Below, in pieces: positions 2,301 through 61,952 of a stretch of 64,000 nt of DNA (within the stretch, counting starts at the first letter, position 1; every line of letters begins with the position of its first letter). Where the stretch lies: the NCBI GenBank assembly GCA_019096065.1, contig JAGUCH010000007.1, positions 22,501 to 86,500 on the forward strand, in the 5' to 3' direction. The position numbers and the translations under genes were made by a program. A model generated the notes under the pieces. The model searched no databases and was not told where the DNA came from. It saw nothing but the letters and a program-made list of their open reading frames with translations. Source of the stretch: Paracyclopina nana. Its lineage: Eukaryota; Arthropoda; Copepoda; Cyclopoida; Cyclopettidae.

Positions 2301-3875
2301 TTGGGAAAAAGTCGAGTTTCCCAAGGCCAGAGCCTTAGGGATTTTTCGACGATTTCGTCAAAAGCGGCCTAGCTCAAAAACAAGACCAGTTCTGAACTCA
2401 GTGATTTATTTGCAACAACTTTTGCTTCAATGACTTTGCTGTATCTTGCCATTTTAGGGTGCTGAGTCGCTTTACTGAGATGCTGAGATTCGGTATGTTT
2501 ACATATTTTGGGGTGCTGAGCAACTTTTGCTAAATAAGTTTTTTGATATCTCTTACCGTTTCGGCTCTACCGAGTGCTGAGAAAACGACTCAGCAGTTTT
2601 GAAATCAGCTGACTGTGCTGAGTAGGCTCCATAGAGGAAAGTGCTGGGAGCCAGAATCCAAAGTTTCATCGAATTTGGATGAAAATTGAGCCATTTAGAG
2701 CGGGTTAAAGTTTGGGGGTGACGCCCCAAGTCGGGGTCGCGAACCGGGTCCTCGTAGCCCAAATCTGAGTGCAGAATCGGGTTCAGCACCCTCGAAAACC
2801 CTACCGAGGACACCGAGCACGTCCCGATATCTCAAAGTATGGCCAAGTTGCCCCTGAGCCCCGGGGCACACCCGAGAGGGCAAAATGCCCTTTTTCGCTA
2901 TTTGCGATCGGATCGGGTCGTGCGATACGTCAAACGAAAGCTGGGGTCAAGGGGAGTAACTTTTATTAATGAGTCATTGGGGTCAGACCCGCCCATGATG
3001 GAGTTGGGGTACACAGGGTACCCCATTTGGGACCCTTCGGGTACTAGGAGTGGAGCTAGCGCCAATCTGACTTCAGATTTGGATTCCCCACCCCTGAAAA
3101 CCTGTCCAAGTACACCTCAGCCGACCCGATAGGCCACTCCACGTAGGAGTTGACCTCAGCCTGGGGGGTGGCTTCCTGCCAAAAAGTGCAGTTCACTAAT
3201 AAAGTACCCCCAAATCGGGTCCTAACCCGATTTTGACAACTGATTGGGGTTCCCAGACCCCAAGTTTCATAATAAGAATGAGAGGGTGTGGCCCCTGGGC
3301 CACTCCTTCTGAATCTTGGCGGGGTCAGCCTGCAAGGTTTCACTGTCTCTTCCGCCCCTAGCTCCCCAAATCTTTGCCCTCTTGGAACGTGACCAACGCC
3401 ATCGGGTTCCCAGAGTTTGAAATCAGTTTGGTGTTTTTTTTTCAGCCCATTCCACCTATGAAAATGGGGTCAACCCTGGCCTCAAAGTTGAAAATGGAGG
3501 CCAAAAAGTGAAAAATCGGGTTAAAACGAAGATCCTTATGAAGCGAGCGGGCCAATCTAGAAGGTGGGCAGAAAAATTTCACTAATAGAAGTTGTAGGGC
3601 GTGCCATGAATGGGCAGGGATATAAAGGGTGGGCCAAGAGGGCACACCCTCTCCCGCCCAGGGGCGGAAGAGACACCTTTTACAGACGAAACATAAGGAA
3701 AAGCGGTTTTTTTAACTTTGTGGCCGAAATCAAAGGTGGATCATGAAGGACCATAAAATACCAAATGACCGCCACAAAAATCGGGTTATTTTGTATTAAT
3801 GAAGTTTTTCAAGAGGGCAAGCCCCCGGGGCGCTAAGGGCGGAAGAGACGAGGATCTTCGTCTAGGTTAACTTAT
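2301..3875. other. GC-rich gene-free stretch with an inverted-repeat element
   Basis: No convincing coding region. Base composition is visibly richer in GC than the rest of the window. A segment starting GTCTCTTCCGCCCCT at 3345 and reading GCCCTCTTGG at its inner edge (to 3385) is repeated in inverse orientation at 3634-3674 and again at 3810-3849. The first pair could be the ends of a ~330 bp MITE-like element. The third copy ends 26 bp before the telomere-type array. Confidence 0.5.
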
Positions 3876-6109
3876 CCTAACCTAACCTAACCTAACCTAA
3901 CCTAACCTAACCTAACCTAACCTAACCTAACCTAACCTAACCTAACCTAACCTAACCTAACCTAACCTAACCTAACCTAACCTAACCTAACCTAACCTAA
4001 CCTAACCTAACCTAACCTAACCTAACCTAACCTAACCTAACCTAACCTAACCTAACCTAACCTAACCTAACCTAACCTAACCTAACCTAACCTAACCTAA
4101 CCTAACCTAACCTAACCTAACCTAACCTAACCTAACCTAACCTAACCTAACCTAACCTAACCTAACCTAACCTAACCTAACCTAACCTAACCTAACCTAA
4201 CCTAACCTAACCTAACCTAACCTAACCTAACCTAACCTAACCTAACCTAACCTAACCTAACCTAACCTAACCTAACCTAACCTAACCTAACCTAACCTAA
4301 CCTAACCTAACCTAACCTAACCTAACCTAACCTAACCTAACCTAACCTAACCTAACCTAACCTAACCTAACCTAACCTAACCTAACCTAACCTAACCTAA
4401 CCTAACCTAACCTAACCTAACCTAACCTAACCTAACCTAACCTAACCTAACCTAACCTAACCTAACCTAACCTAACCTAACCTAACCTAACCTAACCTAA
4501 CCTAACCTAACCTAACCTAACCTAACCCAACCTAACCTAACCCAACCTAACCTAACCTAACCTAACCTAACCTAACCTAACCTAACCTAACCTAACCTAA
4601 CCTAACCTAACCTAACCTAACCTAACCTAACCTAACCTAACCTAACCTAACCTAACCTAACCTAACCTAACCTAACCCAACCTAACCTAACCTAACCTAA
4701 CCTAACCTAACCTAACCTAACCTAACCTAACCTAACCTAACCTAACCTAACCTAACCTAACCTAACCTAACCTAACCTAACCCAACCTAACCTAACCTAA
4801 CCTAACCTAACCTAACCTAACCTAACCTAACCTAACCCAACCTAACCTAACCTAACCTAACCTAACCCAACCTAACCTAACCTAACCTAACCTAACCTAA
4901 CCTAACCTAACCTAACCTAACCTAACCTAACCTAACCTAACCTAACCTAACCTAACCTAACCTAACCTAACCTAACCTAACCTAACCTAACCTAACCTAA
5001 CCTAACCTAACCTAACCTAACCTAACCTAACCTAACCTAACCTAACCTAACCTAACCTAACCTAACCTAACCTAACCTAACCTAACCTAACCTAACCTAA
5101 CCTAACCTAACCTAACCTAACCTAACCTAACCTAACCTAACCTAACCTAACCTAACCCAATCCTAACCTAACCTAACCTAACCTAACCTAACCTAACCCA
5201 ACCTAACCTAACCTAACCTAACCTAACCTAACCTAACCTAACCTAACCTAACCTAACCTAACCTAACCTAACCTAACCTAACCTAACCTAACCTAACCTA
5301 ACCTAACCTAACCTAACCTAACCTAACCTAACCTAACCTAACCTAACCTAACCTAACCTAACCTAACCTAACCTAACCTAACCTAACCTAACCTAACCTA
5401 ACCTAACCTAACCTAACCTAACCTAACCTAACCCAACCTAACCTAACCTAACCTAACCTAACCTAACCTAACCTAACCTAACCTAACCTAACCTAACCTA
5501 ACCTAACCTAACCTAACCTAACCTAACCTAACCTAACCTAACCTAACCTAACCTAACCTAACCTAACCTAACCTAACCTAACCTAACCTAACCTAACCTA
5601 ACCTAACCTAACCTAACCTAACCTAACCTAACCTAACCTAACCTAACCTAACCTAACCTAACCTAACCTAACCTAACCTAACCAACCTAACCTAACCTAA
5701 CCTAACCTAACCTAACCTAACCTAACCTAACCTAACCTAACCTAACCTAACCTAACCTAACCTAACCTAACCTAACCTAACCTAACCTAACCTAACCTAA
5801 CCTAACCCAACCTAACCTAACCTAACCTAACCTAACCTAACCTAACCTAACCTAACCTAACCTAACCTAACCTAACCTAACCTAACCTAACCTAACCTAA
5901 CCTAACCTAACCTAACCTAACCTAACCTAACCTAACCTAACCTAACCTAACCTAACCTAACCTAACCTAACCTAACCTAACCTAACCTAACCTAACCTAA
6001 CCTAACCTAACCTAACCTAACCTAACCTAACCTAACCTAACCTAACCTAACCTAACCTAACCTAACCTAACCTAACCTAACCTAACCTAACCTAACCTAA
6101 CCTAACCTA
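3876..6109. repeat. (CCTAA)n arthropod telomere-type array, ~2.2 kb
   Basis: About 447 head-to-tail CCTAA pentamers (TTAGG on the minus strand) in one orientation. There are roughly ten CCCAA variants and rare slips (an extra T near 5161, a shortened unit near 5682). TTAGG is the canonical telomere repeat of most arthropods. Unique or moderately repeated DNA lies on both sides, so here it is interstitial or next to an assembly join. The orientation (CCTAA on the + strand) is that of a left-hand chromosome end, meaning the first 3.9 kb would lie distal to it. Confidence 0.97.
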
Positions 6110-53334: not shown

Positions 53335-54102
53335 ATTAAACGCCAATTCAAAACTCATTAATCTCACGAGATCTTGTCAAGACCTTGCTGTATAAAACAT
53401 TTTCCAAGATTTTGTAAAGCAAGGGCCAACTGTTTATTTTGTCTTATGATTTGGAGAGAAATACTGACAATTTTTATTTCGTATTGATCAAGAAGAACCG
53501 AATGTTTATAAATCTAAGCATAATGCTGACTTCAAAACTACTTTTGAAGTCTTTTTTAAGTCAAACTATTGCAGCAAAAGTAGGGCATCATCATGAATCA
53601 TGAAAATCATCTGAACAGTCCAAAAATGAGCCCAACTGAAATTGAATTGGTTTGGTTGACTTCACTGAAGTTCGGCTGTTGCATAGCTGCCTGTAATTGT
53701 GCCACAATTATCGACATTGATGTCATTCTGGGTGCAATTTCAAATAGCTAAAAAACTGCATTTAGTAAAAAATCAACTTGACTTGGGTCAAAATAGCCAT
53801 TTCAGCTATAAATAGCCACATATGGTCACCCTGGCAGTCATTGCTACAGAAACTAAATTACTATAATCAGCAGCTCTGGTAATTAGAGCTGAATTTCACT
53901 CAGAATGCCCCTGTGTGCACACTTGAACGATTTTCCTTGCAAGTTGCAGCTGATAGGGGCAGCTAGCAGAGCTGAGCAGTCACATGGTGCCAGGTCTGGT
54001 TGGAAACTGGAATTTTCACAACATAAACAACAGAATTGTTGTTGAGTAAAAAAGTTGGATAAGATTGATCTCCTTCCATCATTTCGAGCTTCTGATGGCA
54101 AC
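53335..54102. other. Spacer between L(3)mbt and SPTLC1
   Basis: No gene or repeat recognised. It should carry the L(3)mbt 3' end and the SPTLC1 promoter. Confidence 0.5.
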
Positions 54103-55100
54103 ATGTTGGCTCAATTTCAAGACCTATTTGATGACTTCATCCAGGTGAGTGTATAAACACGTATCATAATTAACTACTTATAACGTTTAGTCCATTAATG
54201 CAGGTGCCCACCTATCACTTGGTGCTAGAGGGTTTTCTTTTACTTTGGATAGTTTGGTTACTTGTCCGCCGCTACAAAAGAGGTCGCTCTGGTCGGGGTG
54301 GTAATGCCAACGAAATTAAATTGACCAAAGAAGAAGAGGATGAATTGCTAGCAGATTGGAAACCCGAGCCTTTGGTACCTGAGGTACTAAAAAAATCCCT
54401 TACTTATTTCTGTTTCAGCATAGTTTTACATTTAGGTGGATCCCAATCATCCAGCACTGCATGCTCCACTTGTGGAGAGCAAAGCTGGCCCCAAAATTAT
54501 TGTGGATGGACGTGAATGTGTCAATTTGGCCACTCATAACTACTTGGGCTTTGCTGGCAAGCCAGAAATAGAAGAGGAAGCTGTGAAGTGCATCAAAAAA
54601 TTTGGCGTGGGCTCTTGCGGTCCGAGGGCATTTTATGGAACTGCAGGTTTACTTTTGTCACGATAATGTAGTACTCCTTTTTATGAGGAGCTTCAATTTA
54701 CATTTGATTATTACAGATGTTCATGTCCATCTAGAGGAGAAGCTGGCAGAATTTTTTGGCTGTGAGCAAGCCTGCCTGTACTCTTATGGATTTTCCACCA
54801 TAGCCAGTGCAATTCCAGCCTATGCCAAAAGAGGAGACATCATTTTTGTGTAAGGATTCAAGGCTTCCTCATGACCCTTAATTTGCAATTTTTGCCCTCT
54901 CCAGGGATGAGTGTGTCCATTTCGCCATTCAAAAAGCTTTAGATGCTTCAAGGAGCAAGATTAAGTACTTCAGGCACAACGATGTTGAGCATCTTGAGCA
55001 ACTTTTGGAGCAGCAAGCCAAGGATGACAAGAAGCACCCAAAGTTGGCCAAAATGACGCGAAGGTTCCTCGTCGTTGAAGGCATCTACATGAACTCTGGT
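54103..55100 (+). CDS. SPTLC1: Serine palmitoyltransferase subunit 1, 5' part (interrupted)
   Basis: Regulatory subunit of the enzyme that condenses serine with palmitoyl-CoA, the first step of sphingolipid synthesis in the ER. Exons 54103-54144, 54204-54383, 54436-54646, 54717-54849 and 54905-55100 give 254 residues, in phase. Features: an N-terminal membrane helix ([17 protein letters not shown]), the conserved [20 protein letters not shown] with the cysteine that is mutated in human HSN1, and [19 protein letters not shown]. The exon reads MNSG at its end and then runs straight into a foldback element. The frame continues 35 codons into that element before a stop at 55206. If transcribed without removal of the insert, a ~289-residue truncated protein would result. 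The rest of the gene resumes at 60617. Confidence 0.92.
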
Positions 55101-55437
55101 CAAAGGGGATCACCCGCGAGTGCGAGCACGGAGCGAAAAAAGTACCACATATACATACGGACTAAAACGGCCGTAACTTTGCCGTTACGTAACTTTTCCG
55201 TGATGTAAGCGCATATTTGGGATCGGGGCAGCGCGCCCTTTAATTTGAGCCCAAAAAAGTCGTCAAAATGCGGCGTATAAGAAAGTTGCAATTTTCTCCG
55301 TCGTCCTTGGGCCTACAGCAAAAACAAAGACAGTTTTGGAAATCCCAGCCCGAGCTCTACAAATGTTATTTTATGAACTTTTTCAAAAAAGTCCATTCTA
55401 GTGCCTCAAAATTGCCATTTTCGTGTTTATTAGGGAG
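55101..55437 (+). repeat. Left outer inverted arm of the foldback element
   Basis: Matches the reverse complement of about 60283-60621 over ~335 bp. The three differences I can see are near 55169 (gg/cg), 55202 (t/c) and 55418 (t/c). The sharp loss of similarity after gtgttta marks the inner edge. Confidence 0.9.
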
Positions 55438-55744
55438 CAGCCCCATTAATTGAGGTCAAATTGTTGAAATATCCACAGCTCATTGTAGGAACATCAATAA
55501 AATGTAATCTTTGCACCATTGCAACCGCCTCAACATGCCATTTAATTTGAGCCCAAAAAAGTCGTCAAAATGCGGCGTACAAGAAAGTTGCCTTTATCTC
55601 AGTTGTCCTTTGGTTTTAAGCAAAACCAAAGACAGTTTTGGAAATCCCAGCCCGAGCTCTACAAATGTTATTTTATGAACTTTTTCAAAAAATTCCAGTC
55701 TTATGCCTCAAAATTGCCATTTTCGTGTTTATTTGGGTTTCCAC

Positions 55745-57690
55745 TGTCTCAGCAGTCTATAAAGTAAACATGCCAGCTCCGGTGCTGAGCCCTGAGCAGC
55801 CTGAGGTAAAAAATCAGGTCATATCCTGAAACTACATGAAAAACTGAGCCACTTTGTGCTTCATAGGCAATTCAGTATTCTGGCACTAGGCAGGAGAAAA
55901 AACCTGCGCAAACTTGGACTGAGCTCAAATTGTCACACCAATATCTCAGTGCTGAGTTGTCCGATTTGAAAACCATTTACTGTTTTGGAATTGAGGTGAG
56001 ATTAGCTAACTTTTATTACTTCATAGCCATTTTGCTAGCTCAGTGATAAGTTTCCCCTGTCTCAGCAGTCTATTAAGTAAACATGCTAGCTCCGGTGCTG
56101 AGCCCTGAGCAGCCTGAGGTGAAAAATCTGGTCATATCCTGAAACTGCATGAAAAACTGAGCCACTTTGTGCTTTAGAGCCAACTCAGCATTCTGACTCT
56201 AGACAGGAGAAAAAACCAGCGCAAACTTGGACTGAGCTCAAATTGTAATGCCAATATCTCAGCGCTGAGTTGTCAGATTTGAAAACAATTTACTGTTTTG
56301 GAAATGGCGTAAGATTAGCTAACTTTCATTGTTTCATAGCAATGTTGCTAGCTCAGTGATAAGTTTCCCCTGTCTCAGCGGTCTATTAAGTAAACATGCT
56401 ACCTCCAGTGCTGAGCCCTGAGCAGCCTGAGGTGAAAAATCTTGTCATATCCTGAAACTAGATATAAAACTGAGCCACTTTGTGCTTTAGAGCCAACTCA
56501 GCATTCTGACTCTAGACAGGAGAAAAAACCAGCGCAAACTTGGACTGAGCTCAAATTGTAACGCCAATATCTCAGCGCTGAGTTGTCCGATTTGAAAACA
56601 ATTTACTGTTTTGGAAATGGCATGAGATTAGCTAACTTTCATTGCTTCATAGCAATTTTGCTAGCTCAGCCTTTTGTTTCCCCTGTCTCAGCAGTCTATT
56701 AAGTAAACATGCTAGCTCCGGTGCTGAGCCCTGAGCAGCCTGAGGTAAAAAATCTGGTCATATCCTGAAACTACAAATAAAACTGAGCCACTTTGTGCTT
56801 CAGAGCCAACTCAGCATTCTGACTCTAGACAGGAGAAAAAACCAGCGCAAACTTGGACTGAGCTCAAATTGTAACGCCAATATCTCAGCGCTGAGTTGTC
56901 AGATTTGAAAACAATTTACTGTTTTGGAAATGGCGTAAGATTAGCTAACTTTCATTACTTCATAGCAATTTTGCTAGCTCAGTGACAAGTTTCCTCTGTC
57001 TCAGCAGTCTATTAAGTAAACATGCTACCTCCAGTGCTGAGCCCTGAGCAGCCTGAGGTAAAAAATCTTGTCCTATCCTGAAACTGCATATAAAACTGAG
57101 CCACTTTGTGCTTTACAGCCAACTCAGCATTCTAACTCTAGACAGGAGAAAAAAACAGTACAAACTTGGACTGAGCTCGCATTGTAACGCCAATATCTCA
57201 GCGCTGAGTTGTCAGATTTGAAAACAATTTACTGTTTTGGAAATGGCATGAGACTAGCTAACTTTCATTACTTGATAGCCATTTTGCTAGCTCAGTGATT
57301 AGCTTACCCTGTCTCAGCAGCCTATTAAGTAAACATGCCAGCTCCGGTGCTGAGCCCTGAGCAGCCTGGGGTGAAAAATCAGGTCACATCCTGAAACTAC
57401 ATGAAAAACTGAGCCACTTTGTGCTTCAGAGCCAACTCAGTATTCTGGCACTAGGTAGGTGAAAAAACCTTGGCAAACTCTGACCAGGCTCAAATTGTAA
57501 CACCAATATCTCAGCGCTGAGTTGACCGATTTGAAAACAATTTACTGTTTTGGAAATGGCATGAGACTAGCTAACTTTCATTACTTCATAGCCATTTTGC
57601 TAGCTCAGCATTTTGTTTCCCCTGTCTCAGCAGTCTATTAAGTAAACATGCTAGCTCCGGTGCTGAGCCCTGAGCAGCTTGAGGTGAAAA
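55745..57690 (+). repeat. ~313-bp tandem units, left arm
   Basis: Six full units and a partial seventh. Each contains gtaaacatgct, ggtgctgagccctgagcagcct, aactgagccactttgtgctt, gacaggagaaaaaacc, atatctcagcgctgagttgt and aatttactgttttggaaatgg. Units differ by scattered substitutions only. Confidence 0.93.
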
Positions 57691-57699
57691 TTCTGGTCA

Positions 57700-58640
57700 C
57701 TTTTGCCTATAAAACTTTTGCCCTTGAGACTTTTGTCCATGGACACTTTTGCCTTAAGATACATTTGCCTTTAGGAAGTTTGCCCTTGAGGACTTTTGAC
57801 CTTCAGACTTTTTCCCTTCAGACTTTTGCCCTTGGGGAATTTTGCCCTTGGGGAATTTTGCCCTTGGTGTCTTTTGCCCTTGGGGTCTTTCTCCCTTCGG
57901 GACATTTACCCTTAGGGACATTTGCCCTTGGGGACATCTGCCCTGGGGGACTTTTGCCCTTGGGGACTTTTGTCCCTTGGAACTTATGCCCTTGAAGACT
58001 GTTGGCTTTGGGGACTTGTGTCCTTGTGGACATTTGCATTTGGGGACAATTGCCCTTGGGGACCTTTGCTCTTTTAGGACTTTTTTGAAGTTCTGATAGT
58101 TTGCTTTTAACATTTGATTAGTTAAATGAAAGATAAATCTGAATTTTGTCTGGTGTACGTGTACAAGGCCCTTTGATCAACAGGACATAGTAAAAGCAAC
58201 CAAGAGAAGAGTTCCTATGGGCATCAGTCCCCTTGGGCAGTAGTCCCCACAGCCATAAGTCCCCAAAGCCAAAAGTCCTAAAGGGCAAATCTCTCAAAGT
58301 TTGCGGGGGCAAAAGTTTCCTAGGGCAGAAGTCTAAAGGGCTAAAGTCCCCAAGGGGAAATGTCCCCAAGGGCAAAAGTCCCCAAGGGCAAAAGTCTGAA
58401 GGGAAAAAGTCCCTAGGGGCAAAAGTCTCCAAGGGCAAAAGTCCCTAAGGGCAAAAGTCCCCATGGGCAAAAGTCCCCATGGGCAAGAGTCTCTAGGGTA
58501 AAAGTCCCCATGGGCAAAGGTCTCTAGAGCAAATATCCCACATGCATAAGTTCCCATGGGCAAAAGTCTCATGGGCAAATGACTCCATGGGCAAACGATC
58601 AAGGGCAAAAAGACCAAGGGCTAACAGCAAAGGGAGTCCT
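57700..58640. repeat. Central strand-switching minisatellite (cccttggggacttttg)
   Basis: From 57700 to about 58085 the repeat reads tgcccttggggacttt. From about 58220 to 58640 it reads the complement, caaaagtccccaagggc. The ~130 bp between them (58090-58215) is unique and would form the loop of a giant hairpin. Open frames on either strand are repeat artefacts. Confidence 0.9.
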
Positions 58641-58779
58641 GAGACCATTATTGTTAGACTATTAATTGTCTACAAATTGTCTATAAATGCCAACATGATC
58701 TGCTTAGATCAGCTGAGTCAGGCAAAGTGGCAATAGATTGCTGTGAGAAGGAAAGCAAATAACTGAGTTATTATTTTTT

Positions 58780-60282
58780 ACCTCAGACTGCTCAAAGCTC
58801 AGCACTGGGCTTTCTTGTTTACTTAATTGGCTGCTGAAACATAGGAAACAAATTGCTGAGCCAGCAAAATTGCTTTAAAGCAATGCAAATTAGCTGAGTT
58901 GGATATGAAGTACAAAGTGGCTCAGTTTAATATGCAGTTTCAGGATATGACCAGATTTTTTACCTCAGGCTGCTCAGGGCTCAGCACCGGAGCTAGCATG
59001 TTTACTTAATAGACTGCTGAGACAGGGGAAACAAAAGGCTGAGCTAGCAAAATGGCTATGAAGTAATGAAAGTTAGCTAATCTCATCCCATTTCCAAAAC
59101 AGTAAATTGTTTTCAAATCGGACAACTCAGCGCTGAGATATTGGTGTTACAATTTGAGCCCAGTCCAAGTTTGTACTGGTTTTTTCTCCTGCCTAGAGTC
59201 AGAATGCTGAGTTGGCTACGAAGCACAAAGTGGCTCAGTTTTATTTGTAGTTTCAGGATATGACCTGATTTTTTACCTCAGGCTGCTCAGGGCTCAGCAC
59301 TGGAGCTTGCTTTTTTATTTAATAGACTGCTGAGACAGGGGAAACTTATCACTGAGCTAGCAAAATTGCTATGAAGCAATGAAAGTTAGCTTATCTCATG
59401 CCATTTCCAAAACAGTAAATTGTTTTCAAATCGGTCAACTCAGCGCTGAGATATTGGTGTTACAATTTGAGCTCAGTCCAAGTTTGCGCTGGTTTTTTCT
59501 CCTGTCTAGAGTCAGAATGCTGAGTTGGCTCTGAAGCACAAAGTGGCTCAGTTTTATATGCAGTTTCAGGATAGGACAAGATTTTTCACCTCAAGCTGCT
59601 CAGGGCTCAGCACCGGAGCTGGCATGTTTACTTAATAGGCTGCTGAGACAGGGTAAGCTAATCACTGAGCTAGCAAAATTGCTATGAAGTAATGAAAGTT
59701 AGCTAGTCTCATGCCATTTCCAAAACAGTAAATTGTTTTCAAATCGGTCAACTCAGCGCTGAGATATTGGCGTTACAATTTGAGCTCAGTCCAAGTTTGT
59801 ACTGGTTTTTTCTCCTGTCTAGAGTTAGAATGCTGAGTTGGCTCTAAAGCACAAAGTGGCTCAGTTTTATATGCAGTTTCAGGATAGGACAAGATTTTTC
59901 ACCTCAGCCAGCTCAGGGCTCAGCACTGGAGCTAGCATGTTTACTTAATAGACTGCTGAGACAGAGGAAACTTATCACTGAGCTAGCAAAATTGCTATGA
60001 AGTAATGAAAGTTAGTTAATCTCATGCCATTTCCAAAACAGTAAATTGTTTTCAAATCGGTCAACTCAGCGCTGAGATATTGGCGTTACAATTTGAGCCC
60101 AGTCCAAGTTTGTACTGGTTTTTTCTCCTGCTTAGAGTTAGAATGCTGAGTTGGCTTTGAAGCACAAAGTGACTTAGTTTTATATGTAGTTTCAGGATAT
60201 GACAAGATTTTTCACCTCAGGCTGCTCAGGGCTCAGCGCTGGAGCTAGCATGTTTTCTTAATAGACTGCTGAGACTTGTATG
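58780..60282 (-). repeat. ~313-bp tandem units, right arm (reverse orientation)
   Basis: The reverse-complement landmark gcatgtttactt recurs at about 58997, 59310, 59624, 59937 and 60250 (period ~313), with a partial unit near 58800. These pair with the left-arm units. Confidence 0.93.
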
Positions 60283-60616
60283 CCCCTAATCAACACGAAA
60301 ATGGCGATTTTGAGGCACTAGAATGGACTTTTTTGAAAAAGTTCATAAAATAACATTTGTAGAGCTCGGGCTGGGATTTCCAAAACTGTCTTTGTTTTTG
60401 CTGTAGGCCCAAGGACGACGGAGAAAATTGCAACTTTCTTATACGCCGCATTTTGACGACTTTTTTGGGCTCAAATTAAAGGGCGCGCTGCCCCGATCCC
60501 AAATATGCGCTTACATCGCGGAAAAGTTACGTAACGGCAAAGTTACGGCGGTTTTAGTCCGTATGTATATGTGGTACTTTTTTCGCTCCGTGCTCGCACT
60601 CGCGGGTGATCCCCTT

Positions 60617-61524
60617 TGCAAGCTTGACAAAATGGTCGGGCTGAAGAGAAAGCACAAGCTCAGGCTTTTCATTGACGAGTCCATATCCTTTGGAGTCCTC
60701 GGAGCAACAGGAAGAGGCATCACTGAGCACCTCAGCATCTCAGTATAAAGAAATTCCAATTGAAAAACCAAAGCCCCCTTTAAAAAAACAATGTTATTCT
60801 TTAAGATGGATGATGTGGATTTGATCATTGCCACATTGGAATATGCAATTGGTTCCATAGGAGGATTTTGCGTGGGAAATAGCTATGTTGTGGAACATCA
60901 GACCCTGGCTGGCTTAGGTATTAGCATTTTTAATACATTTCTCCAGAAGGTAATATGAACATTTCAGGCTACTGCTTTTCTGCCTCACTGCCACCAATGC
61001 TCGCAGCTGGGGCTTTGAAAGCAATAGAGCTGATCGAGAACAACCATGGCATATTTGGAGAGCTCCAGGGCAAAGCTGAGCTGGTCCATGACCAATTTGA
61101 CCAAATGCCAGGGCTCCAATTGAGCGGAGATCGAATCAGCCCTGTCAAGCATTTGAGGCTGGAAAATCCGGAATCCATGAGTCGTGAGGGCCAAAAGGCA
61201 ATTCTCCATAAAATCGTCATAAAGGTTAGTTCTCTTTGATCAGCGTTCAAGAAAAAATTCCCTTTTCGCTGCTGACAGCATAATTTCCCTGTTTGTTGGA
61301 AATTAATTTCCATATACCCATTTCTGAAAAGCATGTTTTTCTTGCTTCTTTTGTAGGCTCGTGAGAGGGGAGTAGCTTTAACCACAGCCTCGTATTTGGA
61401 GGATGCCGAGACCCATTTGCCACTGCCAAGTATCAGATTAACCTGCTCGGTTCTCCTGGAAGACGAGCTTATCATCGAAGCTGGCAAGGTTGTGCAGCAA
61501 ATTTGCAAGGATATTTTCGAGTGA
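60617..61524 (+). CDS. SPTLC1: Serine palmitoyltransferase subunit 1, 3' part (interrupted)
   Basis: Continues the SPTLC1 frame after the foldback element. Segments 60617-60742, 60806-60917, 60968-61224 and 61357-61524 give 220 residues. It begins [16 protein letters not shown], directly after the conserved MNSG of the first part with two residues unaccounted for. [20 protein letters not shown] and [10 protein letters not shown] are conserved. The position of the PLP-binding lysine of the SPTLC2 subunit has no lysine, as expected for subunit 1. First part plus second part is 474 residues, the normal family length (human 473), so only the insert disturbs the gene. An AATAAA is at 61543. Confidence 0.92.
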
Positions 61525-61952
61525 CATCTTCATGTTAAGCTTAATAAAGGCGAACAAGTCTCATCTCAGCAAATAGCAGTTTTTTTTCTTTTATGCCAAG
61601 TCACAATGCCCTAATTAGGCAAAATAATCATGGTCCCAAGAGCCATGCCATGATGATTGAGACTTGATGAAAATACAGTACATCTATCTTTAGGCCCTCA
61701 AAACTTTTAGTAGCATCTTTTCAAGTTTGTGTCTCCTTGAAGCAGCAATGGATTTCAAACTTCGGGGCTGTCCAATTTTGTCCAATCCTTCATCACTGGA
61801 ACTGATGGCTTTTGCGTGCAAAATAACAGCCCTGACCTCCAAATAATCATGAAACACTTGCATGGTGTATTTATGCTAAGGTAAATATGGTGTTAATTAC
61901 ATAATGTATTTGAGAAGAAGTGTAGTTGTAAGCTATGTGAAATGCTCATAAA

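Follow-up and report, generated by a model that had tools for sequence, protein, structure and literature searches.

A non-autonomous foldback element of 5,510 bp interrupts exon 5 of a copy of SPTLC1 in a 64,000-nucleotide stretch of the genome of the copepod Paracyclopina nana (assembly GCA_019096065.1, contig JAGUCH010000007.1, positions 22,501 to 86,500; hereafter the window, G000:C7:22501-86500). In the reading favored here, to which we assign a probability of about 85%, a recent Spy-like insertion broke one of two SPTLC1 copies and left the other, on contig C4, intact. The apparent paradox of a broken essential gene would then have a plain answer, a second copy, with no exotic rescue needed. 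The genome searched comprises 92 Mb in 10 contigs of one assembly.

The split gene and its intact paralogue

The SPTLC1 copy without the insert (G000:C4:2139261-2141239) has an uninterrupted frame of 477 codons in 8 exons, and its counterpart of exon 5 is a single unbroken exon of 328 nt. A model of the window gene built by homology to this copy has 8 exons and seven GT..AG introns, with frames open outside the insert (Table 1). The first-pass annotation, made from the window sequence, had described a foldback insert splitting a conserved SPTLC1 exon in an otherwise intact gene; the split is confirmed by the inverted repeats, the family termini described below and the unbroken C4 exon, and the intactness of the remainder by the homology model. 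DNA identity between the two copies stops at 55102 and picks up again at 60615. At this site C4 reads GGG CAG ATT TGC (G-Q-I-C) and the joined window flanks read GGT CAA ATT TGC, which encode the same four residues. An assembly misjoin is unlikely, because both edges of the insert are the usual termini of the family and no host bases are missing where the gene continues.

The C4 protein aligned with human SPTLC1 (6m4n_A), its best solved relative, over residues 7-473 (E 6.5e-154) with 516 bits, against only 157 bits for human SPTLC2; judged by these scores the split gene is SPTLC1 and not SPTLC2. A protein search of the genome delivered 11 matches, consisting of four exon pieces of the window copy, four of the C4 copy and three elsewhere with 27-35% identity, and at the DNA level a query made of the downstream portion hit the window and C4 copies only. 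A second intact copy had been among the options offered by the first-pass annotation, which had also named a full-length SPTLC1 elsewhere as the finding that would count against the importance of the window copy; the C4 gene is such a copy.

The coding sequences of the two copies differ at 84 of 1,419 nucleotides (12, 7 and 65 at the first, second and third codon positions) and at 15 of 473 amino acids, and 375 of 461 aligned intron positions agree. Nonsynonymous (dN) and synonymous (dS) divergence were estimated as 0.017 and 0.24 (NG86) or 0.016 and 0.19 (YN00). These values indicate that the duplication is old and that purifying selection has long held on both copies. When the 15 residue differences were polarized by eye with human SPTLC1, the human residue occurred in C4 at 5 and in the window at 2, the rest being uninformative, which is too few sites for a conclusion.

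The presence of two copies only, with a dS of about 0.2, could also suggest diverged alleles, for example of an asexual or hybrid lineage. This is highly improbable, because collinearity reaches no further than the gene and its borders (window 53880-61820): within 89 kb of C4 there are six further matches, all of them short and not in the order of the window. The chromosomal places differ as well, the window copy lying close to a telomere and the C4 copy at 2.1 Mb. On this evidence the two copies are duplicates rather than alleles. In the mouse, homozygous deletion of an SPTLC1 exon is lethal according to the available text of PMC13329131, an essentiality that fits survival through the C4 copy. 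Compared with SPTLC1 elsewhere, this genome has two copies, one of them interrupted.

Table 1. Features of the interrupted SPTLC1 copy and of the inserted element (window coordinates)
Feature	Position	Strand	Basis
SPTLC1 exon 1, inferred start codon	54103..54144	+	homology to the C4 gene; donor GT
SPTLC1 exon 2	54204..54383	+	homology model
SPTLC1 exon 3	54436..54646	+	homology model
SPTLC1 exon 4	54717..54849	+	homology model
SPTLC1 exon 5, left part; last bases are the host target half AAA (55102-55104)	54905..55104	+	uninterrupted C4 exon; empty sites
Non-autonomous foldback element, 5,510 bp, GGGGATCACC...GGTGATCCCC	55105..60614	.	boundaries common to 14 other copies; three paralogous empty sites
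Left outer arm (terminal inverted repeat)	55105..55435	+	4 mismatches of 331 against right arm
First in-frame stop TAA for the SPTLC1 frame within the element	55206..55208	+	frame reading
Second copy (91%) of the left arm's inner part	55537..55737	+	repeat comparison; family D12
313-bp tandem array, 6.3 copies	55737..57699	+	tandem repeat scan
Center: degenerate ~16-bp repeats (about 57694-58073 and 58307-58595) flanking a spacer	57694..58595	.	repeat scan; core 57700-58323
313-bp tandem array, opposite orientation, 4.4 copies	58893..60275	-	repeat scans
Right outer arm	60284..60614	-	inverted repeat search, arm comparison
SPTLC1 exon 5, right part; first bases are the host target half TTT (60615-60617)	60615..60742	+	homology model, C4 alignment
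SPTLC1 exon 6	60806..60917	+	homology model
SPTLC1 exon 7	60968..61224	+	homology model
SPTLC1 exon 8 with stop	61357..61524	+	homology model

The window copy lies 77-84 kb from the start of C7 and is subtelomeric. The start of C7 carries a long degenerate TTAGG-type array (L042 52-10000, within G000:C7:1-28610, L042-L044), followed by 10,000 bases of N and then by a cleaner TTAGG-type array of 2.2 kb (window 3868-6109).

The element, its family and its target site

The limits of the insert were set by comparison with other copies and with empty sites, and the AAA and TTT that adjoin its termini are best read as host bases. Together with flanking host bases the outer inverted repeats (55101-55435 and 60284-60618) measure 335 bp and are 98.8% alike; their length and near-identity had been noted in the first pass, with about three mismatches where there are 4. 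Further inside, the opposed 313-bp tandem arrays form inverted arms that reach 1,383 nt with 92% identity. Long, internally repetitive inverted repeats make up most of the element, as expected of a foldback.

A genome-wide search with the 24-base terminus (up to 2 mismatches) gave 42 matches against 0 for the reversed control, so the family is not a product of chance. Pairing ends that lie no more than 10 kb apart gives 15 elements by manual count. The family sample used here consists of the window element and 14 fetched copies (L010-L023), the paired element C4:7436126-7440977 being left out. The fetched copies are 3.8-9.1 kb long, with 4.8-6.8 kb common and the longest extended by a nested retroelement. 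All 15 copies have arms of about 330 bp (323 bp in L018, the right end of which is damaged) that are 94.1-98.8% alike within a copy. L023 (C3:2369406-2378504) is poor in 313-mers and carries a nested retroelement, named gypsy-like by eye, whose open frames are long. Repeats of 313 bp with about 89-94% identity, lacking the 24-base terminus of the family, occur at G000:C5:3501627-3503915, C9:919416-920871 and C2:10316302-10328312 and are perhaps an older or differently ended relative.

AAA precedes GGGG in 14 of the 15 copies and TTT follows CCCC in equally many, each triplet accounting for about 4% of host triplets; the exceptions are L016, with TAA on the left, and the damaged end of L018. 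Target-site duplications of 3-9 bp were sought and found in none of the 13 intact-ended fetched copies, nor in the window. Three empty sites are available: L038:504/505, which corresponds to L023 on both flanks, has an exact AAATTT (GAAA|TTTG), satellite units beside L010 read TAAT|TTTG, and the C4 SPTLC1 exon reads CAGA|TTTG where the joined window flanks read CAAATTTG, with the same residues encoded. These sites identify AAA and TTT as host bases and the target-site duplication as never formed: insertion is between AAA and TTT, with host bases neither duplicated nor lost. L010 itself sits in a tandem satellite (flank L004:1647-2742), other units of which act as its empty sites.

SPTLC1 is not the only coding frame that is split. 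When the flanks of the window element and of 13 fetched copies were joined (n=14, L018 left out), long frames with independent support crossed the junction in four, namely the window, L012, L013 and L019. L012 (C5:6960196-6966056) splits a C2H2 zinc-finger array at CDICDRK^FADSN (zf-C2H2, E 1.4e-33). The frame split by L019 (C2:5982518-5988619) matches another locus at 35% over residues 2-201, and that split by L013 (C2:1832914-1836744) has tandem relatives, one aligned over residues 2-139 at 30%, and no Pfam family. Of the three frames split outside the window, two belong to zinc-finger genes. Close duplicates of the L013 and L019 genes are lacking (next best-scoring matches 37% and 35% identical), which speaks against the idea that only duplicated genes can keep the element. 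The exonic share of 3/6 in the youngest subfamily against 1/8 in older copies is not significant (Fisher P 0.24). In one frame AAATTT encodes Lys-Phe, two residues that stand side by side in C2H2 zinc fingers; L012 is inserted exactly there.

Age of the insertion and fate of the window copy

The element core (57700-58323) shows 0 differences over 624 bp from L010 and L013; from L011, L012 and L014 it is set apart by 1-2 substitutions and no more than one gap. This core identity points to a recent spread of the subfamily, which dates the insertion itself only approximately; by the same comparison the insert is much younger than the SPTLC1 duplication. A recent insertion, as proposed in the first pass, is thus probable, although the near-identity of the arms, then given as the reason, is not a valid argument. 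Unlike long terminal repeats, the arms of an inverted-repeat element are not made identical at insertion. Arm divergence was accordingly rejected as a clock: arms are 94.1-98.8% alike within the 15 copies, and the window arms are up to 98.5% like those of other copies.

In the proposed course of events, a transposase acting in trans would have inserted a non-autonomous DNA transposon, its inverted arms long and internally repetitive, into the subtelomeric SPTLC1 duplicate of the window, between the AAA and TTT of the CAAATTTG stretch in exon 5, host bases being neither duplicated nor deleted. The SPTLC1 frame entering the element reaches TAA at 55206; because translation would stop there after 34 element-derived residues, the window copy is very likely null. 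The enzyme would be supplied by the intact C4 paralogue, which we infer to be sufficient. On these terms the locus would illustrate the death of a subtelomeric duplicate with a date attached.

Three points weigh against this account. The intact frames of the window copy could also mean that it still works, two of the three empty sites are one base off AAATTT, and no transposase with matching termini was found among the two DDE_Tnp_4 loci read of 25.

A protein might still be made from the window copy if the element had become an intron, as the first-pass annotation proposed, with a donor GCC|GTAACT (about 55173) joined to the AG at 60622 and 24 residues replacing I-C-K. The phase arithmetic was correct: both sites are phase 0, and no stop lies ahead of the donor. 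The remaining coding sequence is intact and constrained, donors of this gene are generally loose, with GTAACT within their range, and L012 and L013 also hold some phase-compatible GT/AG pairs. Such pairs prove nothing, since several GT and AG are on hand (8 and 5 in the window scan) and compatible ones are expected by chance. The intron would span about 5.4 kb, whereas the other introns measure 50-132 nt in the window gene and 55-179 nt in the C4 paralogue; the frame entering the exonic L019 ends after two codons, before any GT occurs; and the insertion falls in a segment conserved to human SPTLC1. With weak sites and so unusual a length, splicing-out is possible on paper and very unlikely. 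As regards introner-like elements, which are spliced out of RNA, the terminal bases here are GGGG...CCCC and not GT...AG.

The insert may instead be polymorphic, absent from other haplotypes, with the window copy functional in most chromosomes. The young core and the absence of decay in the flanking coding sequence would fit, and a polymorphic insert is compatible with the recent breakage of one of two copies; the assembly is a single one, and we regard this as a serious though somewhat doubtful possibility. Insertion leaves AAATTT unaltered, so a clean excision would return the exon to its exact original sequence. That the family is precisely removed from DNA in some cells or generations, making split exons reversible, as with the sequences that ciliates eliminate, though in an animal, appears extremely improbable; if true, it would bear on the 4 of 14 tested copies in split exons, including two whose host genes lack a close duplicate.

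Relation to Spy and to known foldback elements

No family copy contained a recognizable transposase: none of the 25 genome matches to PF13359 (DDE_Tnp_4) falls within the 15 copies, and frames of at least 150 aa in the 14 fetched copies and at least 120 aa in the window, judged without a Pfam scan, are repeats, the L023 retroelement or host flanks. Two DDE_Tnp_4 loci, C6:3726580 and C1:1906597, lie 1.3 kb beyond and outside a lone arm of the family. They were rejected as autonomous copies: the arm is single, with the transposase gene behind it rather than in the direction in which it points, and the 6,000 and 3,600 bases read there contain no second one. The two loci (arms at L047:1931-2264 and L048:1-276) are 98.6% alike over about 2.8 kb, so that arm and gene must have been duplicated as a unit; an upstream open reading frame looked Myb-like by eye and matched no Pfam family. 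A search for an autonomous partner with 15-base termini (1 mismatch) gave 64+75 matches against 67+67 in the control, so that only exact matches were informative, and these added little to the 42 ends already found.

In the available text of PMC4482050 and PMC11304231, Spy (PHIS) transposons of insects and arachnids have terminal inverted repeats and enter sites between AAA and TTT, where they cause no target-site duplication. On this resemblance the family likely belongs to Spy, and by analogy we infer that a Spy-type DDE transposase did the moving. The element could instead be a foldback of another superfamily, Mutator-like or P/Galileo, with target-site duplications lost here. The part of PMC4079207 available assigns foldbacks with tandem repeats in their arms mostly to Mutator, and no transposase ties the family to Spy. 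This alternative is nevertheless unlikely, given that all 13 fetched intact-ended copies and the window lack a duplication, that the empty sites show none ever formed and that the AAA/TTT flanks match Spy as so described. The duplication of 8-10 bp typical of Mutator-type elements is not seen in the family. In the literature searched, a foldback family combining 313-bp tandem repeats with Spy-type insertion did not turn up, nor were 'AAATTT' and 'foldback', or 'Spy transposase' and 'foldback', found together.

As far as the sources at hand describe them, Galileo and Foldback elements resemble the present family in their long, internally repetitive inverted repeats, and Galileo belongs to the P superfamily. 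Galileo makes a target-site duplication. Closer in architecture is Tetris of Drosophila virilis, a non-autonomous foldback with tandem repeats of about 220 bp inside its inverted repeats and no autonomous partner found, which is assigned to Mutator in the available text of PMC4079207. The present family shares with it the tandem repeats in inverted arms, the non-autonomous state and the autonomous partner not found, and is unlike it in having AAA/TTT targets and no target-site duplication, where Tetris makes duplications of 8-10 bp. Spy elements as described in the same parts of PMC4482050 and PMC11304231 have one transposase open reading frame and terminal inverted repeats of 5-691 bp, whereas the present family is without a transposase match and has long arms with 313-bp tandem repeats and lengths of 3.8-9.1 kb; non-autonomous PHIS elements may have been missed, according to PMC4482050. 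If the Spy link holds, foldback architecture would arise in a transposon group without target-site duplication, from which excision could in principle be perfect. With Spy the family has in common its AAA/TTT targets, its terminal inverted repeats and its insertion without duplication of the target.

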